Source: Hungatella sp. (GTDB lineage Bacteria; Bacillota; Clostridia; Lachnospirales; Lachnospiraceae). From it: a stretch of 44,761 nt of DNA. The stretch lies in contig JAAWHK010000011.1 in the NCBI GenBank assembly GCA_022795805.1, positions 1 to 44,761 of the forward strand, given 5' to 3'. This document shows, piece by piece, positions 35,826 through 40,924 of this stretch (positions within the stretch are counted from its first letter, which is position 1; each line of letters starts with the position of its first letter). The notes under the pieces are model-generated. The model worked only from the letters and a program-made list of their open reading frames with translations. It was not told where the DNA came from and searched no databases. Position numbers and translations under genes: made by a program.

Positions 35826-37010
35826 TTACCTTTTTGCGCTCTTCACAAAGTCCTCATAGAGAGGCGACATATCCCGCAGCCTCTTCACAATCTCCTTAAT
35901 ACGCTCCACCACAAAGTCAATCTCCTCCATGGTGTTCTCGGAACTGACCGTAAGCCGCAGGGAGCCGTGGGCAATCTCGTGGGGAAGGCCGATGGCCAGC
36001 AGCACATGGGACGGATCCAGGGAACCCGAAGTGCAGGCAGACCCGCTGGATCCGCAGATTCCGCTGCTGTCCAGCATAATCAGCAGGGACTCGCCTTCTA
36101 TAAACTGGAACGCAAAATTGGCGTTGTTGGCCAGACGCGTAGTCCTGTGGCCGTTAAGGCGCACGTAAGGCACCTCCGCCATGACCCTGTCTATGAGGTA
36201 ATCCCGAAGCTCCCGCTCTTTCTTCTCCCGCTCCTCCATGGAAGCCATGGCCATCTCCACGGCCTTTTTATATCCCGCGATCCCCGGCACATTCTCCGTA
36301 CCGCCCCGCCGCTTCCGCTCCTGGGCGCCTCCGTGGACAAAGGACCGCATCTTGATCCCTGTCCGGATGTACAGAAAGCCAATGCCCTTGGGCCCGTTTA
36401 ACTTGTGAGCGCTGGAGCTTAACATATCTATATTGTACTCGTCTACATGGATCGGTATATGGCCGTATGCCTGCACCGCGTCGGTATGGAACAGGATGCC
36501 GTGCTCCCTGGCTATCCGCCCGATCTCCTTCACAGGCTCTATGGTCCCGATCTCATTGTTGGCAAACATAACGGAAATCAAAATCGTGTCCGGCCGGACG
36601 GCCTTTCTCAGCTCATCCAGCTTAATGATCCCGTTTTCGTCCACATCCACATAGGTTATCTCAAATCCCCTTTTCTCCAGGTACTCACAGGTGTGAAGCA
36701 CCGCGTGATGCTCAATCTTACTGGTAATAATGTGTTTTCCCTTATCCCCATAAGCCTCAGCCACAGCCTTGATGGCCCAGTTGTCCGACTCAGTCCCTCC
36801 GGCCGTAAAATAGATCTCTGCCGGCCTGGCTCCCAGACTTTCCGCTATGGTCTCCCTTGCAGACGCTATAATCTCCTTGCTGGGAGCCGAAAATTCATAT
36901 ACCGAGGACGGGTTGCCGTAATTCTCGGTAAAATAGGGCAGCATGGCCTCCACAACCTGAGGATTCGTCCTGGTGGTGGCCGCATTGTCCAGATAAATCG
37001 TTTGATTCAT
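35826..37010 (-). CDS. nifS: Cysteine desulfurase (NifS/IscS family)
   Basis: 394 residues from MNQTIYLDNAATTRTNP; GGCGG lies about 7 bases upstream and an ATG 14 codons earlier lacks a ribosome site. PLP-binding lysine is in SSSAHKLNGPKGIGF, and the active-site cysteine in SSGSACTSGSLDPSHVL, a class I desulfurase loop. It takes sulfur from cysteine as persulfide for NifU and MnmA. A near-consensus promoter lies at 37065-37092. No iscR regulator is adjacent, unlike many Clostridia. Confidence 0.95.
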   Translation of the reverse strand: MNQTIYLDNAATTRTNPQVVEAMLPYFTENYGNPSSVYEFSAPSKEIIASARETIAESLGARPAEIYFTAGGTESDNWAIKAVAEAYGDKGKHIITSKIEHHAVLHTCEYLEKRGFEITYVDVDENGIIKLDELRKAVRPDTILISVMFANNEIGTIEPVKEIGRIAREHGILFHTDAVQAYGHIPIHVDEYNIDMLSSSAHKLNGPKGIGFLYIRTGIKMRSFVHGGAQERKRRGGTENVPGIAGYKKAVEMAMASMEEREKKERELRDYLIDRVMAEVPYVRLNGHRTTRLANNANFAFQFIEGESLLIMLDSSGICGSSGSACTSGSLDPSHVLLAIGLPHEIAHGSLRLTVSSENTMEEIDFVVERIKEIVKRLRDMSPLYEDFVKSAKR

Positions 37011-37064
37011 GTGTGATCCGCCTTTCCGTAGTATTAAAGTTAAAAGCTTCATCTACATCTTTAT

Positions 37065-37092
37065 ATTATATACTATATTCCCTGTGTTGCAA
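37065..37092 (-). promoter_or_regulatory. Promoter of the nifS-nifU-mnmA-amidase operon
   Basis: On the minus strand TTGCAA (37087-37092) and TATAAT (37065-37070) are separated by 16 bases, about 55 bases before the nifS ATG. Confidence 0.7.
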
Positions 37093-37121
37093 GAAAAATT
37101 ATGTCCCCAAATCCGATTGGC

Positions 37122-37150
37122 TTGAAATCCCATTCTGCTTATGGTAACAT
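37122..37150 (+). promoter_or_regulatory. Promoter of the ThyX-like/PRTase/HIT genes
   Basis: TTGAAA (37122-37127) and TAACAT (37145-37150) have a 17-base spacer, 74 bases before the ThyX-like ATG. It is a moderate match. No other promoter of comparable quality was noticed before the low-GC pair. Confidence 0.55.
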
Positions 37151-37224
37151 AAAACCACTGCCGGCCAACGGTCAGCAGCGCAACTGTCAACAAACCACAT
37201 ACTATAACATATGGGAAACGAAAA

Positions 37225-38613
37225 ATGAACGGAACAGCAACCATCATAAATTACACCGCAAATGCACACGCCATCGTCTCCGCAGCGGGAAGAATCTCCA
37301 CAACCCCAGGAAGCGCCGACGAAATCTACCGAAATTCCTCCGAAAACGCCCCGTCAGCCAACCTTAAACTGATCGGCAAAATACTGTCCTCAGGCCACGA
37401 GTCAGTCCTGGAACACGTCTCTGTCAATCTGTCCTTTGACAATGTCTCCGTCTATGTGGAGCAGTTCATGATCGAATTCAGGCTGGCCTCCTTCACGGTC
37501 AAATCCCGCCGCTATGTGGATTTTGGCCAAATGGGCTATGTCACCCCCGATTTTTCCTCCTTCCCTGCTCTTCAGGAGAAAGATTTAAGGACCACGTACC
37601 AAAACCACATGGAATACCTTTTCGGCCGGTACAGCTATTTGATTGAGAAGGGGGTTCCGAAAGAAGACGCCCGCTTTGTCCTTCCCTACTCCTTTCAAAG
37701 CAATTTCTACTGCACGGTCAACGGGCGGGAACTGATAAAGATCATGAACGAGATGGCCTGGGGACGGGGAAAAGATTTTCCCGAACTGGTCAGACTGGGC
37801 CGGTCCCTGTTCGACCAGTGCCGTCAGTGCCTCCCGTTCCTGGCAGTCCAAAAAACGGCCTTTGACCTCCGCCAATCCCTGGACAGGCACCTGGCGGATG
37901 ATTTAAAAAACAGTTCCGTGGACATAAAAGAAGGAAACACGGTCACCCTCCTCAGGGGGACCAGACACCCGGAGCAGCTTATCTGCCAGGCCGCGCTGCT
38001 AGGCTGTGGCATATGCCGCCTGGATGAAGCGGAACCTGTTCATACAGAGATGCAGAAAACCATCATCGCCCAGATCCTGAAGAGTTCCAGAAAGAGGGAA
38101 CTGGAGCAGGCCTGCTTCACCCTGCGCTTCAACCGCATCTCCCTGGCCGGAATCACCCACCTGGTGCGTCACAGAATGCAGTCCGCAGTGATTCCTGATT
38201 ATATCCGGACATGCAGCTTCGGCAGATATGTGGTGCCCGAAAGCATTGTCCATCTGGGACTGGAGGAGGAATACCGGGAGGTGTTCAGAAAGGCCGGAAA
38301 AGCGGCTGACCGCCTTGGCAAAATGGGGATTCCGTTCCATGACCGGATCTACCTGCTGCTCAGCGGCATGACCCTTCCCGTCATGACCACAATGAATGCC
38401 AATGAGCTGAATACATTTATAAGGCTGAGGACCTGTAACCGGGCTCAGTGGGAGATCAAGGAGTGCGCGGATGCCCTCCTGAAAATACTGAGAGAAACAT
38501 ACCCGGTTCTGTTCTCCTTCTACGGCCCGTCCTGCTTTGTAAGCGGCACGTGCCCGGAGGGACGAATGTCCTGCGGGAAGATGCGTGAGGTGAGGGAGTT
38601 CTATGGGATGTAG
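37225..38613 (+). CDS. Tandem two-domain ThyX-like (FAD-dependent thymidylate synthase family) protein
   Basis: 462 residues, about twice the length of ThyX (about 220-260). The N half (about 1-215) contains SGHESVLEH (56-64) and EFRLASFTVKSRRY (84-97), which aligns with the ThyX motif RHRxxSxxxxSxRY but has lost R and H at its first two positions. The C half (about 275-462) has RHRMQS (315-320), keeping RHR, but the following SxRY part is gone (AVIPDYIR); it also has RLRTCNRAQWEI (400-411), matching the ThyX dUMP/FAD region, and a Cys tail (CPEGRMSCGK). So each half keeps what the other lost. ThyX uses FAD, NADPH and methylene-THF to make dTMP at subunit interfaces; this protein may be a fused pseudo-heterodimer, with an altered substrate possible. 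GC is like that of the surrounding genes. The ribosome site is weak. Confidence 0.78.
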   Translation: MNGTATIINYTANAHAIVSAAGRISTTPGSADEIYRNSSENAPSANLKLIGKILSSGHESVLEHVSVNLSFDNVSVYVEQFMIEFRLASFTVKSRRYVDFGQMGYVTPDFSSFPALQEKDLRTTYQNHMEYLFGRYSYLIEKGVPKEDARFVLPYSFQSNFYCTVNGRELIKIMNEMAWGRGKDFPELVRLGRSLFDQCRQCLPFLAVQKTAFDLRQSLDRHLADDLKNSSVDIKEGNTVTLLRGTRHPEQLICQAALLGCGICRLDEAEPVHTEMQKTIIAQILKSSRKRELEQACFTLRFNRISLAGITHLVRHRMQSAVIPDYIRTCSFGRYVVPESIVHLGLEEEYREVFRKAGKAADRLGKMGIPFHDRIYLLLSGMTLPVMTTMNANELNTFIRLRTCNRAQWEIKECADALLKILRETYPVLFSFYGPSCFVSGTCPEGRMSCGKMREVREFYGM

Positions 38614-39706
38614 GAAGCATATTGATATAAAAAGAATTTTGGATTTTTCTGCAAATACTATACATGCGATATTTTTATGCTTTTTATGCTACTGTATTAT
38701 TAGAGCCATTACGGATATAGATGCCCTGCCAACTTCACAAAACTTTTGGGGCAATGTTAAATCCATTTTGCTGCAAATGGATATTAATGAGATATATACA
38801 TTTATAGGATCACTGGGATTTATCTTATTTGGAATTACAGGAATCTATGACTTTGCCTATTTGAATGGTCTATATATTTTGGTCCCACCTGCTTTTGTAC
38901 AGGCGAAAGAAAAAACTTATATTAAACAGGCAGAAAAGATGATGGAGCTCTATTACAAAAAGGATATTGAATTCATACTAGAGTATGAAAAAGAGAGAAC
39001 CAATGTGTTACTTCAGGCTATGGGGATAGAGGAGAAACAGTTTCATCTTATTAATTACGAGATAATAAAAGCACGTACGGAATCAGAAAAGAGCATTCAT
39101 GCACTAAAACGCAAAGCCAAAAAATTGCTTCTGCACAAAGAATATATTATTAACCAATCCGCATTAAGTATATCAAAAAAAGTATATGATAAAGTAGATT
39201 ATTTTTTTAACTTATATACTGCCCTTTATGACAACCAAACGTGCGAAAGTATTGGAAAAATCATGCTTTCCTTTCTATGCCTGTCCTTGAAGGAAAAAGT
39301 TGAAACTATCGATTACATAGTTATCCCGAAAGGCAGCAATTTTCTTCTTGGCCTAGAAACAGCAAAACTTCTGCATAAACCGGTTATATCCGTTCTGAGT
39401 GAAGAGCGCATTTTCAAAAATGCGTTTTGGGACGGTAACTATACCACTGATAAAGTCAATAATATTGTAGTTATCCACGATGTACTGGTTTCAGGAAAAC
39501 GTATCTATGAAAGCATCGAGAAATTGCCAGATCACTCATACAATTTGTATGGTATCTTCTGTCTTATGAAATATAACAGTGAATCATTTACCGCTATAGA
39601 TGATTTTTTAAAGCATAATATCTCAGAAGATAAAATTAATTGTTTATTGGACATTGATGAAAATCTTTTGAAACAGATTTATGAGGATAGATATGAATAC
39701 GATTAA
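38603..39706 (+). CDS. Two-helix membrane protein with a phosphoribosyltransferase-like domain
   Basis: 367 residues. Two hydrophobic segments at about 18-38 and 64-98 are followed by a helical, Lys/Glu-rich region (100-200) and a C-terminal PRTase-type domain (about 235-320). The domain has a pyrophosphate-loop-like IVIPKGSNFLLG and a PRPP-loop-like NIVVIHDVLVSGKRI (288-301). The PRPP loop differs from the canonical acidic pair plus TG: the first acid is His292, Asp293 is kept, and T becomes Ser297 before Gly298. Catalysis is therefore uncertain, and it may only bind a nucleotide or PRPP. The start overlaps the ThyX-like stop by 11 bases. It is strongly AT-rich (sampled lines 25-38% GC) against neighbours above 50%, indicating transfer. 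GAGGGAG precedes the ATG. Confidence 0.72.
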   Translation: MGCRKHIDIKRILDFSANTIHAIFLCFLCYCIIRAITDIDALPTSQNFWGNVKSILLQMDINEIYTFIGSLGFILFGITGIYDFAYLNGLYILVPPAFVQAKEKTYIKQAEKMMELYYKKDIEFILEYEKERTNVLLQAMGIEEKQFHLINYEIIKARTESEKSIHALKRKAKKLLLHKEYIINQSALSISKKVYDKVDYFFNLYTALYDNQTCESIGKIMLSFLCLSLKEKVETIDYIVIPKGSNFLLGLETAKLLHKPVISVLSEERIFKNAFWDGNYTTDKVNNIVVIHDVLVSGKRIYESIEKLPDHSYNLYGIFCLMKYNSESFTAIDDFLKHNISEDKINCLLDIDENLLKQIYEDRYEYD

Positions 39707-40373
39707 AACGTCAGAATGTTGTATATGCAGCGAATTTTTCAGTGAGAATAATTCCGCCTTATCCTATCTGTATAAATTAGGATTAAACCGTGAGATTAAG
39801 TCCCGAGTATTATATGAAAACCAGCGTTTTATAATTATTCCCTCACTGGGACCAGTTGCAGAATGCCACCTATTGGTTCTGCCTAAAAAACATGTATCTT
39901 CATATGCAGCCCTGGATACTGAGTCTTTATATTATGCAGAAAAACTAATCCGCCAAACTTCTTGCCTTGTCAAAAGAAAATTTGGCAGCAGCATGGTTTT
40001 TGAACACGGCACCTTGGACAGTGAAATACACAACAGCGCTTCCTGTTTTCATGCACATATGCACATTGTATCTTGCCCTTACTCAATCGTCCCATTATTA
40101 AGAAATGACGAATTAAAGCTTCGAAAAATAAATTCCTTGTGCAGCTTAAAAGATCAATATGTGAGAAACAGGCCATATTTCTTTTATCAAGAATATCCGA
40201 ATTATGCTTTTGTAATGGATGATACCATACAAAGGTCTCAATACTTACGCATATTAGTCGCGACAGTTCTCAAAAGGGCTGAAACCGGTGATTGGAAAAA
40301 AAATCCTGGTATAGCAAACGTTAACAAACTATACATGGAAATGAAAAATGAATTTCGAGATCAGATATCGTAA
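39693..40373 (+). CDS. HIT-family protein (histidine triad hydrolase/transferase)
   Basis: 226 residues from MNTIKTSECCICSE; GAGG lies 6 bases upstream and inside the end of the PRTase-like gene, which it overlaps by 14 bases (an ATG 12 bases earlier is possible). The histidine triad is H120-A-H122-M-H124-I-V. ECHLLVLPKKHV (57-68) and MVFEHGTLD (about 101-109) are classic HIT segments, and a CCxC cluster near the start may bind zinc. HIT proteins hydrolyse or transfer nucleoside monophosphates (for example Ap4A, AMP-lysine, GalT-type). The C-terminal 90 residues extend past the usual HIT fold and are unassigned. AT-rich like the previous gene, so the two arrived together. It converges on the VanZ-like gene with 17 bases between. 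Confidence 0.85.
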   Translation: MNTIKTSECCICSEFFSENNSALSYLYKLGLNREIKSRVLYENQRFIIIPSLGPVAECHLLVLPKKHVSSYAALDTESLYYAEKLIRQTSCLVKRKFGSSMVFEHGTLDSEIHNSASCFHAHMHIVSCPYSIVPLLRNDELKLRKINSLCSLKDQYVRNRPYFFYQEYPNYAFVMDDTIQRSQYLRILVATVLKRAETGDWKKNPGIANVNKLYMEMKNEFRDQIS

Positions 40374-40390
40374 TATCCGTCTATTCCGGT

Positions 40391-40924
40391 TCATGATCCT
40401 GCCGCCGTATTCACAATCCAAAAAACGCACCACCCCAAGGCGGTTCCCACCGTATTCATCACTACATCATCCAGCTGGCAATACCCTCTCAGGGTTGCCA
40501 GCTGAATCAGCTCTATGCTAACACTGCATATAAGCCCTGCCAGAATACATCCCAGCACATTCCTCATCGGTTTTATACAACAGGGCAGCAAGCCCCCCAT
40601 GGGAATAAACAAAAGCACATTTTCTACCACATATCCATGGGACTGCACCGTTGTCCCCCATGTACCCATCAGCTGCAGATTTACTCCCGTTCTGGACCCT
40701 GGTTCTCTGGAAAAAAATACGATGATAGCCAGAATGGTCACGTAAAATGCCATAAGAAACCAGAATATAAGTTTTCTGCAGCTAATCCTGTCTCGGATCA
40801 ATTTCGTATATATCCCAATAAATATTACAGACAGAACACCTGCCGCTATCCCCCATGGGGCATAACTTATAGGTTCCCCCATGTCCTTGCATATGATCAA
40901 AAAAAGCTCATTCCACCAATCCAT
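40391..40924 (-). CDS. VanZ-like membrane protein
   Basis: 177 residues with about five hydrophobic segments. The VanZ signature is clear: VVENVLLFIPMGGLLPCCI followed by SIELIQLATLRGYCQLDDVV and MNTVGTALGWCVFW. Most VanZ-family proteins are of unknown function; a role in glycopeptide tolerance cannot be assumed. AGGGA lies 5 bases before the ATG. The 264 bases upstream are AT-rich and hold no gene. Its composition is between the low-GC pair and the rest of the window. Confidence 0.88.
   Translation of the reverse strand: MDWWNELFLIICKDMGEPISYAPWGIAAGVLSVIFIGIYTKLIRDRISCRKLIFWFLMAFYVTILAIIVFFSREPGSRTGVNLQLMGTWGTTVQSHGYVVENVLLFIPMGGLLPCCIKPMRNVLGCILAGLICSVSIELIQLATLRGYCQLDDVVMNTVGTALGWCVFWIVNTAAGS

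Follow-up and report, generated by a model that had tools for sequence, protein, structure and literature searches.

Why a ThyX-type thymidylate synthase would be encoded in a single run with a membrane PRTase-like protein and a histidine triad (HIT) protein is the question raised by a locus in Hungatella sp. The window, meaning the whole stretch of DNA analyzed, comprises 44,761 nucleotides of contig JAAWHK010000011.1. No description of a gene set combining tandem ThyX, a membrane PRTase, and a HIT protein was found in the portions of the published literature that were available.

Architecture of the locus and its proteins

37225..38613, plus strand: tandem ThyX with two Thy1 domains (matches at 37243-37830 and 37945-38508), 462 amino acids
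37474..37515, plus strand: EFRLASFTVKSRRY (residues 84-97) of the ThyX N-domain, at the usual place of RHR...; each position identical in at least 64 of 67 rows
38167..38175, plus strand: RHR (residues 315-317) of the ThyX C-domain, invariant in 67 of 67 rows
38603..39706, plus strand: membrane PRTase-like protein (P0002), 367 amino acids, open frame; 11-base overlap with the ThyX gene (38603-38613)
38645..38728, plus strand: hydrophobic segment 1 of the PRTase-like protein (residues 15-42), from a hydropathy scan
38792..38857, plus strand: hydrophobic segment 2 of the PRTase-like protein (residues 64-85), from a hydropathy scan
39476..39496, plus strand: HDVLVSG (residues 292-298), at the place of the PRPP-binding loop
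39693..40373, plus strand: long HIT protein (HITL, P0003), 226 amino acids from ATG 39693; 14-base overlap with the PRTase gene (39693-39706)
40050..40064, plus strand: histidine triad HAHMH in HITL; H124, H126, and H128 invariant in nine HITL rows

All three plus-strand frames are open, and the predicted coding overlaps of 11 and 14 bases were borne out with ATG 39693 as the HITL start. The first ATG, at 39681, would instead give 230 amino acids and a 26-base overlap. A GAGG-rich stretch lies ahead of the PRTase ATG at 38603, and AGGA (39684-39687) precedes the HITL ATG. The single upstream promoter candidate of the original prediction carries no weight: both strands of 36900-40800 hold 11 promoter-like sites, compared with 9.6 expected from shuffled sequence. 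Upstream of the trio are ordinary cysteine desulfurase/IscU/MnmA genes, oriented away from it.

Both halves of the tandem ThyX match Thy1, as do known ThyX proteins (PF02511, TIGR02170). The protein scored 229.9 bits against PF02511 over two stretches (cut-off, 24.8; E 2.8e-68) and 161 bits against the ThyX equivalog profile TIGR02170 (cut-off, 87.9), and a genome search with Thy1 gave two separate matches within it. It differs from known ThyX in that a single chain holds both domains and the customary motifs are split between them: where RHR, the FAD/dUMP motif of ThyX, would stand, the N-domain has EFR, whereas RHR and AQWEI are retained in the C-domain. It is further set apart by cysteines at four invariant positions (C404, C437, C443, and C450). 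Relatives at 67 loci came from a genome-contig scan seeded with ThyX; motif counts refer to 67 rows (69 minus L079 and L082), and the tree leaves out five of the 69 rows (L064, L077, L079, L080, and L082) and places L013 with uncertainty, on a long branch.

No ThyA was found in the source genome (78% complete). ThyA was likewise not found in 37 of the 38 tandem-ThyX genomes tested, out of 68 at hand (67 loci plus G344), many of these genomes being incomplete MAGs and 37 of the 38 tested having no completeness given. This distribution suggests that tandem ThyX is likely the housekeeping thymidylate synthase in most genomes that carry it, with the PRTase/HIT pair as its accessory. Tandem ThyX was also seen on one Bacillus and one Paenibacillus plasmid, among replication genes and with no HIT protein annotated nearby; none was confirmed in viral contigs.

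The predicted identities of the tandem ThyX and HIT proteins are upheld by scores above curated cut-offs; the profile matches of the PRTase-like protein all fall below. No type I PRTase profile exceeded its curated cut-off (PRTase-CE, 14.4 versus 27; pyrE_Therm, 19.1 versus 150.25), pyrE profiles matched weakly (8e-4), and the best Pfam match, MatC_N at 15.2 bits, is below its cut-off and falls in the membrane part. A hydrophobic N-terminal segment likewise occurs in the PRTase-like proteins of L013, L015, and L016. The PRPP loop of type I PRTases carries two acidic residues. At its place, the four ThyX-linked members read HDVLVSG, HDVLVTG, or NDVLVTG, so that the first acidic residue is replaced by H or N and the D and S/T-G are kept. 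The structure model has low confidence (pLDDT 59.5); it gave 10 PDB matches at E ≤ 0.001, all orotate PRTases, with TM-scores of at most 0.53. This model and the weak pyrE matches lean toward a PRTase fold for the membrane protein.

HITL exceeds the curated cut-offs of PF11969 (49.3 versus 24) and PF01230 (39.5 versus 21.5). The best PDB match of a nine-row HITL profile was CWF19L1 (E 4.8e-12; positions 46-209 of 223), covering the HIT region and the tail; P0003 alone best matched ordinary HIT proteins. For Pfam CwfJ_C_1, P0003 scored below the cut-off (15.9 versus 21) and a Parabacteroides relative above it (25.8). The likeness is to the C-terminal module of CWF19L1/CwfJ, spanning the HIT domain and C-terminal tail, but HITL is bacterial, keeps the full histidine triad, and presumably lacks the N-terminal CwfJ part of CWF19L1. 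It differs further in that several HITL relatives have deoxynucleotide genes nearby.

Recurrence and composition of the gene set

The original prediction treated the three genes as one set and named two tests: whether the trio is conserved together elsewhere and whether the pair is usually found without ThyX. In the collections searched, the PRTase/HIT pair lies beside tandem ThyX in the window and in three other genomes (L019, L021, and G344), and this recurrence indicates a grouping beyond chance. Gene order is the same in the window, L019, and L021, amid otherwise different neighborhoods whose genes are, judged by eye, ordinary chromosomal ones. HIT is fused to DHFR in one frame in L021, and a TPR gene and a small HIT gene are interposed in G344, which belongs to the same taxonomic order as the source but to another family.

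As to the second test, the collections searched yielded close relatives of the PRTase protein only beside tandem ThyX, so neither of the two outcomes named as refuting was encountered. When P0002 alone was used as a query against genomes of the order, the one strong relative outside the window was that of G344 (E 1.9e-21), beside tandem ThyX. Such single-sequence queries are free of bias from window and G344 alignment rows; alignments A4, A5, and A6 include both rows, which score highly by construction, and searches with these profiles surfaced no further full-length relative. The ThyX-seeded genome-contig scan is by its design unable to reveal a pair away from ThyX. What comes closest to a ThyX-free PRTase gene is a pair of distant membrane PRTases in L015 and L016 (E 7.1e-9 and 2.2e-5), which adjoin radical-SAM genes, with no ThyX in the fetched stretches; being distant, they were left out of the trio count. 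Remaining P0002 matches in the order were short or low-scoring, and one (L017) is by eye PyrE in a pyrimidine operon. Neither the PRTase protein nor its relatives occurred in plasmids, phages, or viral contigs, and HITL was absent from phages and viral contigs.

The set is rare. The PRTase/HIT pair accompanies tandem ThyX at 2 of 55 readable loci, and tandem ThyX itself occurs in 1 of 26 genomes of the genus. The cysteine desulfurase gene was matched in all 26; tblastn of ThyX, PRTase, and HITL against these loci, with upstream flanks of at least 1.4 kb except in L140 (1064 bases) and L142 (266), returned the window's own ThyX as the sole match. In other phyla, members of the HITL subfamily also occur where the PRTase gene is lacking, with deoxynucleotide genes near in four of six records. 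In Parabacteroides, the relative is grouped with DHFR, a PRA-PH/MazG-like gene, and a tandem ThyX of a second kind; in Streptomyces, it comes after a dCTP-deaminase-like gene; and in Rhizobium, genes for thymidylate kinase and a PRPP-synthetase-like protein are a few positions away. HITL therefore pairs with two different kinds of tandem ThyX, in two phyla.

GC content is 53.9% for the window ThyX, 32.4% for PRTase, 36.3% for HIT, and 53.8% for the whole window, whose lowest-GC kilobase (250-base steps) starts at 38751, inside the pair. This difference suggests that the pair came to its ThyX from elsewhere or that ThyX was exchanged. In L021, ThyX (36.6%), PRTase (35.6%), and HIT (36.0%) are alike, with the DHFR part at 47.2% and the locus at 45.1%; in eight pair-free loci, ThyX lies within 2.1 points of its own locus. 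ThyX is followed by DHFR in L018 and L027. In L027, the tree sister of L021, two ilvBN-like genes (named by eye) come next; in L021, ThyX, PRTase, and the HIT:DHFR fusion are followed by one further gene and then the same two ilvBN-like genes. Judged from gene order and composition, the L021 set looks like a cassette.

Candidate roles and known parallels

Tentatively, with slightly less than even confidence, we read the trio as an accessory module that is attached to thymidylate synthesis and most likely serves in nucleotide-based conflict (defense). The defense role is drawn from context. In G344, a CHAT-like protein (match below the Pfam cut-off) and a dCMP-type deaminase precede the set. 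A large serine recombinase that adjoins rlmH lies ~15 kb away; between set and recombinase are a BpuJI-type restriction enzyme, two C5 methyltransferases, and a G2P-type Rep, and the genome also carries ThyA. The possible defense link raised originally thereby gains circumstantial support, this one copy pointing to a possible undescribed defense or signaling module tied to DNA-precursor synthesis.

In such a module, tandem ThyX would supply dTMP, as the likely thymidylate synthase of most tandem-ThyX genomes and an extra one in G344, and the N-terminal helices of the PRTase protein would anchor it in the membrane. The degenerate PRPP/nucleotide pocket of this protein may sense PRPP, a base, or a nucleotide that shifts in level when DNA-precursor metabolism is disturbed, for example by a phage. 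Ligand binding would cause the membrane part to cluster and leak, or would switch a base/nucleotide reaction at the membrane, and the HIT enzyme would hydrolyze a P-N, P-S, or P-O-P bond of the nucleotide ligand or adduct, limiting or resetting the response. A more specific version, which we consider unlikely, is a nucleotide-signaling defense system watching thymidylate metabolism: the two-helix PRTase would be an effector that forms pores or perturbs the membrane, its gating ligand being PRPP or a (deoxy)nucleotide that accumulates on phage takeover of the dTMP pool; the CwfJ-like HIT hydrolase would be its off-switch; and the tandem ThyX would keep dTMP flowing and, where it is the sole such enzyme, make the module hard to lose.

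Parts of this scheme have parallels. According to the available text of the sources, Thoeris TM-macro proteins are two-helix transmembrane effectors that oligomerize upon nucleotide binding (PMC11204291), and a HIT protein has been proposed as an off-switch (PMC8565338). TM-macro ThsA works alike in joining a two-helix membrane part to a nucleotide-binding fold, but the window protein is PRTase-like rather than a macro domain and has no TIR enzyme; homology is not claimed. ThsC (PADLOC, Thoeris type II) is likewise a HIT protein beside a proposed nucleotide system, in the text available; its model matched the G344 small HIT at 5.3e-12 and the G344 HITL at 4.4e-5, but the window HITL at only 0.043. 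Thoeris membership was rejected for the three window proteins, which with five neighbors gave no Pfam match to TIR (no ThsB), SIR2, macro, or another signal-making enzyme. PADLOC gave nothing convincing for the three window proteins (ThyX, none; PRTase, E 0.012; HIT, E 0.043), which are not members of its other systems either. Defense-locus PRTases (PRTase-CE, PF24390; PADLOC PRTase_III-A) share a PRTase fold in a conflict setting, but the matches are weak (14.4 and 13.1 bits), below the Pfam cut-off, and the window protein has a membrane part and ThyX/HIT partners; a literature search on PRTase-CE found nothing. In the accessible text on DefensePredictor, a figure legend names a PRTase among validated systems, and one validated defense system has a thymidylate synthase domain (PMC13092281); the latter likeness is by description, for a gene set given in part and an enzyme not specified as ThyA or ThyX.

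Against a conflict module stand the signal-making enzyme lacking by Pfam among the eight window proteins, the unconvincing PADLOC results for the trio, and a ThsC closer to the G344 small HIT than to the HITLs. The trio genomes number only four here, the window, L019, and L021 copies sit among ordinary chromosomal genes, two distant membrane PRTases lack ThyX, and the PRTase model is of low confidence. The DHFR fusion in one genome and the ThyX/DHFR company fit plain metabolism as well.

That explanation, a pyrimidine/dTMP house-cleaning or salvage operon with no defense role, strikes us as somewhat unlikely. The PRTase would make or recycle a nucleotide at the membrane, HITL would clear damaged or phosphoramidate-type nucleotides, and ThyX and DHFR would make dTMP. 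It accommodates the HIT:DHFR frame of L021, ThyX followed by DHFR in L018 and L027, the PRA-PH/MazG-like gene and DHFR of the Parabacteroides operon, and the dCMP-type deaminase (G344), dCTP-deaminase-like (Streptomyces), and thymidylate kinase (Rhizobium) genes; HIT hydrolases cleave a phosphoramidate nucleotide, in the text available (PMC7157772). It sits poorly with the rare, patchy distribution of tandem ThyX and pair, the low GC of the window pair, and the G344 copy beside a CHAT-like protein, near a recombinase and restriction-modification set, in a genome with ThyA.

Quite unlikely, in our estimate, is that PRTase and HIT form an independent accessory pair (e.g., for resistance or immunity to a nucleotide-like antibiotic) in which ThyX has no functional part, the neighboring thymidylate synthase gene, being essential, keeping the pair from loss. 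The composition break in the window fits this, as does the L021 pair lying between ThyX and DHFR, adjacent in L027 and L018, and HIT hydrolases can confer immunity to peptide-nucleotide antibiotics, per the same partial source (PMC7157772). Yet in G344 the pair has ThyX beside it although the genome also carries ThyA, HITL occurs with both kinds of tandem ThyX in two phyla, and the L021 ThyX shares the low GC of its pair. Chance juxtaposition of unrelated genes, despite the composition break and few genomes, is highly improbable given the same order in three differing neighborhoods and the set again in G344.

If the conflict-module reading is true, DNA-precursor synthesis would join the host processes wired to bacterial conflict modules, a long HIT subfamily with a spliceosomal relative, CWF19L1, would gain a function, and a membrane PRTase would emerge as a possible effector gated by nucleotides. 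Because that subfamily pairs with two double-ThyX kinds in two phyla, the dTMP link is directly testable. ThyX has been studied, in the literature available, as a drug target, and the tandem form is itself unusual in splitting the active-site motifs between its domains and in having four invariant cysteines.

The three genes and their products

The original prediction described three overlapping plus-strand genes, and reading of the open frames bore out their positions and coding overlaps of 11 and 14 bases:

37225-38613, plus strand: tandem ThyX
38603-39706, plus strand: membrane PRTase-like protein (P0002)
39693-40373, plus strand: long HIT protein (HITL, P0003)

Ribosome-binding-like stretches precede both inner start codons. 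The promoter candidate noted for the trio did not stand out from background, as the scan returned 11 sites versus 9.6 in shuffled sequence, about equal. The upstream neighbors form an ordinary cysteine desulfurase-IscU-MnmA group oriented away from the trio, and a convergent VanZ-like gene lies downstream. No tandem ThyX turned up next to the desulfurase gene in the 25 genus relatives, 23 of which offered flanks of 1.4 kb or more. The window spans the whole of contig G000:C30, and its genome is incomplete, at 78.5%.

The first product gave a Thy1 match in each half, both by profile scan and by genome search, and exceeded the ThyX equivalog cut-off; judged by its sequence, it is a real ThyX in doubled form. 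Scanning of genome contigs (genome_contigs) retrieved 67 loci with relatives spanning most of the two-domain length, all from Clostridia by record title except one "uncultured bacterium," and many of animal-gut origin. Motifs were counted in 67 of 69 aligned rows, leaving out L079 and L082, which are incomplete or split. Each domain carries only part of the motifs: the N-terminal domain has EFR at the RHR position, and the C-terminal domain retains RHR and AQWEI. Four cysteines (C404, C437, C443, and C450) are invariant in 67/67 rows (window 37225-38613, L018-L084) and may bind a metal ion or Fe-S cluster, in a family of flavin enzymes. Given that ThyA was found neither in the window's genome nor in 37 of the 38 tandem-ThyX genomes tested, the tandem ThyX is likely the housekeeping thymidylate synthase under normal circumstances, the exception being G344, a genome of another family. 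The type of thymidylate synthase differs within the window's genus, where Thy1 matches occur in 8 of 26 genomes and the tandem form in the window's genome alone.

The second product, a membrane PRTase-like protein, has two N-terminal hydrophobic stretches, and every profile match fell under curated cut-offs. Its structure was modeled with low confidence (pLDDT 59.5); all 10 solved matches to that model with E ≤ 0.001 were orotate PRTases, with target TM-scores of 0.43-0.53. The PRPP loop usually has two acidic residues. At this position, the protein carries HDVLVSG, and one of the two acidic residues is gone in the four ThyX-linked members. Elsewhere, a radical-SAM gene adjoins a membrane PRTase-like gene in two distant genomes (L015:5508-7120 and L016:4562-6313), possibly another two-gene set of similar membrane PRTase design.

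The third product exceeded HIT cut-offs and keeps the histidine triad. As a single query, its best matches were ordinary HIT proteins; a profile built from nine relatives had CWF19L1 as its best solved match (E 4.8e-12), extending across the HIT region and the C-terminal tail. The sequence identifies it as a long HIT protein.

Recurrence and apparent movement of the gene set

A single-query search with P0002 at E 1e-3 matched 2 of 250 genomes in the family and 8 of 392 in the order, the window's own included in each. Beyond its own genome, the sole strong match was G344 (E 1.9e-21). Two weaker matches, in G593 (7.1e-9) and G454 (2.2e-5), correspond to the membrane PRTase-like genes of L015 and L016 that adjoin radical-SAM genes, and the fetched stretches contain no ThyX; if such distant relatives are counted, they speak against a strict PRTase-ThyX tie. 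Profile searches for the PRTase matched 4 of 391 class genomes (own included; the other three partial, about 30 bits) and 1 of 279 in the phylum, its own. For HITL, 41 of 383 genomes in the order matched, only its own and G344 above 61 bits, and the single match among 149 phylum genomes was its own.

The PRTase/HITL pair follows ThyX in two loci, L019 and L021 (2/67, or 2/55 of those having at least 2 kb downstream). A 64-row ThyX tree places the window, L019, and L021 together with nine further rows in a supported clade of 12. Eight of the nine have nearly 10 kb of downstream sequence without the pair; the ninth, L028, has only 243 bases. The ThyX of G344 (L013) lies outside this clade. One clade of all four trio rows was not recovered, and label shuffles revealed no clustering either way.

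L021 and the pair-free locus L027, sisters in the tree (support 97/82), have ThyX, DHFR, and two ilvBN-like genes in common. Between ThyX and DHFR, L021 also carries the PRTase and HIT genes, with one further gene before the ilvB-like gene, and the HIT runs on into DHFR as a single 387-aa frame. ThyX, PRTase, and HIT in L021 have a GC content of 36-37%, against 47.2% for the DHFR part and 45.1% for the locus; in eight compared pair-free loci (L018, L020, and L022-L027), ThyX differs from its own locus by at most 2.1 points. The three genes seem to have moved together in the case of L021. The window's ThyX matches its host in GC content (53.9%), the pair alone being AT-rich; therefore, either the pair joined another ThyX or the ThyX was exchanged.

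Genomic settings in G344 and other phyla

The G344 run comprises ThyX, TPR, PRTase, small HIT, and HITL genes, with a dCMP-type deaminase and a CHAT-like protein (match under the Pfam cut-off) encoded directly upstream of ThyX. Within about 16 kb further on, there are genes for a BpuJI-type restriction enzyme and two C5 methyltransferases, as well as for a small resolvase and a G2P-type replication protein. The same stretch contains a large serine recombinase gene (L162:11209-13324) that abuts rlmH, an arrangement that we take to resemble SCC-type elements of staphylococci. This genome also encodes ThyA, so its tandem ThyX probably belongs to an accessory set.

HITL relatives in other phyla came from six records, all filed as plasmids. 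The Parabacteroides run (L127:2355-7641) encodes a tandem ThyX of a different kind (23% identity across 212 columns), an AAA ATPase, HITL, a PRA-PH/MazG-like protein, and DHFR, the first four genes being below DHFR in GC content. The ATPase has an IetA-like match in PADLOC. Two Streptomyces records contain a dCTP-deaminase-like gene followed by HITL (domain scanned in one record only). In Rhizobium, a thymidylate kinase and a PRPP-synthetase-like protein are encoded a few genes from HITL; inspection by eye of the surroundings (L129:1-8511) also suggested sugar kinase-like, cysteine desulfurase-like, and TrpD-like genes, perhaps a pathway to a nucleotide-derived product. A class V aminotransferase gene adjoins HITL in two Lactococcus records, whose annotation names no deoxynucleotide gene nearby. 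Overall, a deoxynucleotide gene lies near HITL in four of the six records, one by position alone. No membrane PRTase was recognized near HITL, by annotation or eye, in the inspected stretches of the six.

Possible roles of the trio

We tentatively infer that the trio functions as a conflict module from its genomic setting in G344, its patchy distribution, the AT-richness of the pair, and the combination of two helices with a PRTase-like part in one protein. Several parallels are known: Thoeris TM-macro effectors combine nucleotide binding with oligomerization (PMC11204291), an off-switch role in Thoeris has been proposed for a HIT protein (PMC8565338), and validated defense systems include a thymidylate synthase domain and, per a figure legend, a PRTase (PMC13092281). 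HIT hydrolases also inactivate peptide-nucleotide antibiotics (PMC7157772). The set of ThyX, membrane PRTase, and HITL is absent from these known parallels as far as the accessible literature shows. A function in clean-up metabolism, which the DHFR fusion and the enzyme neighbors also suit, is a somewhat less likely alternative. The connection of the trio module to deoxynucleotide metabolism is well supported.
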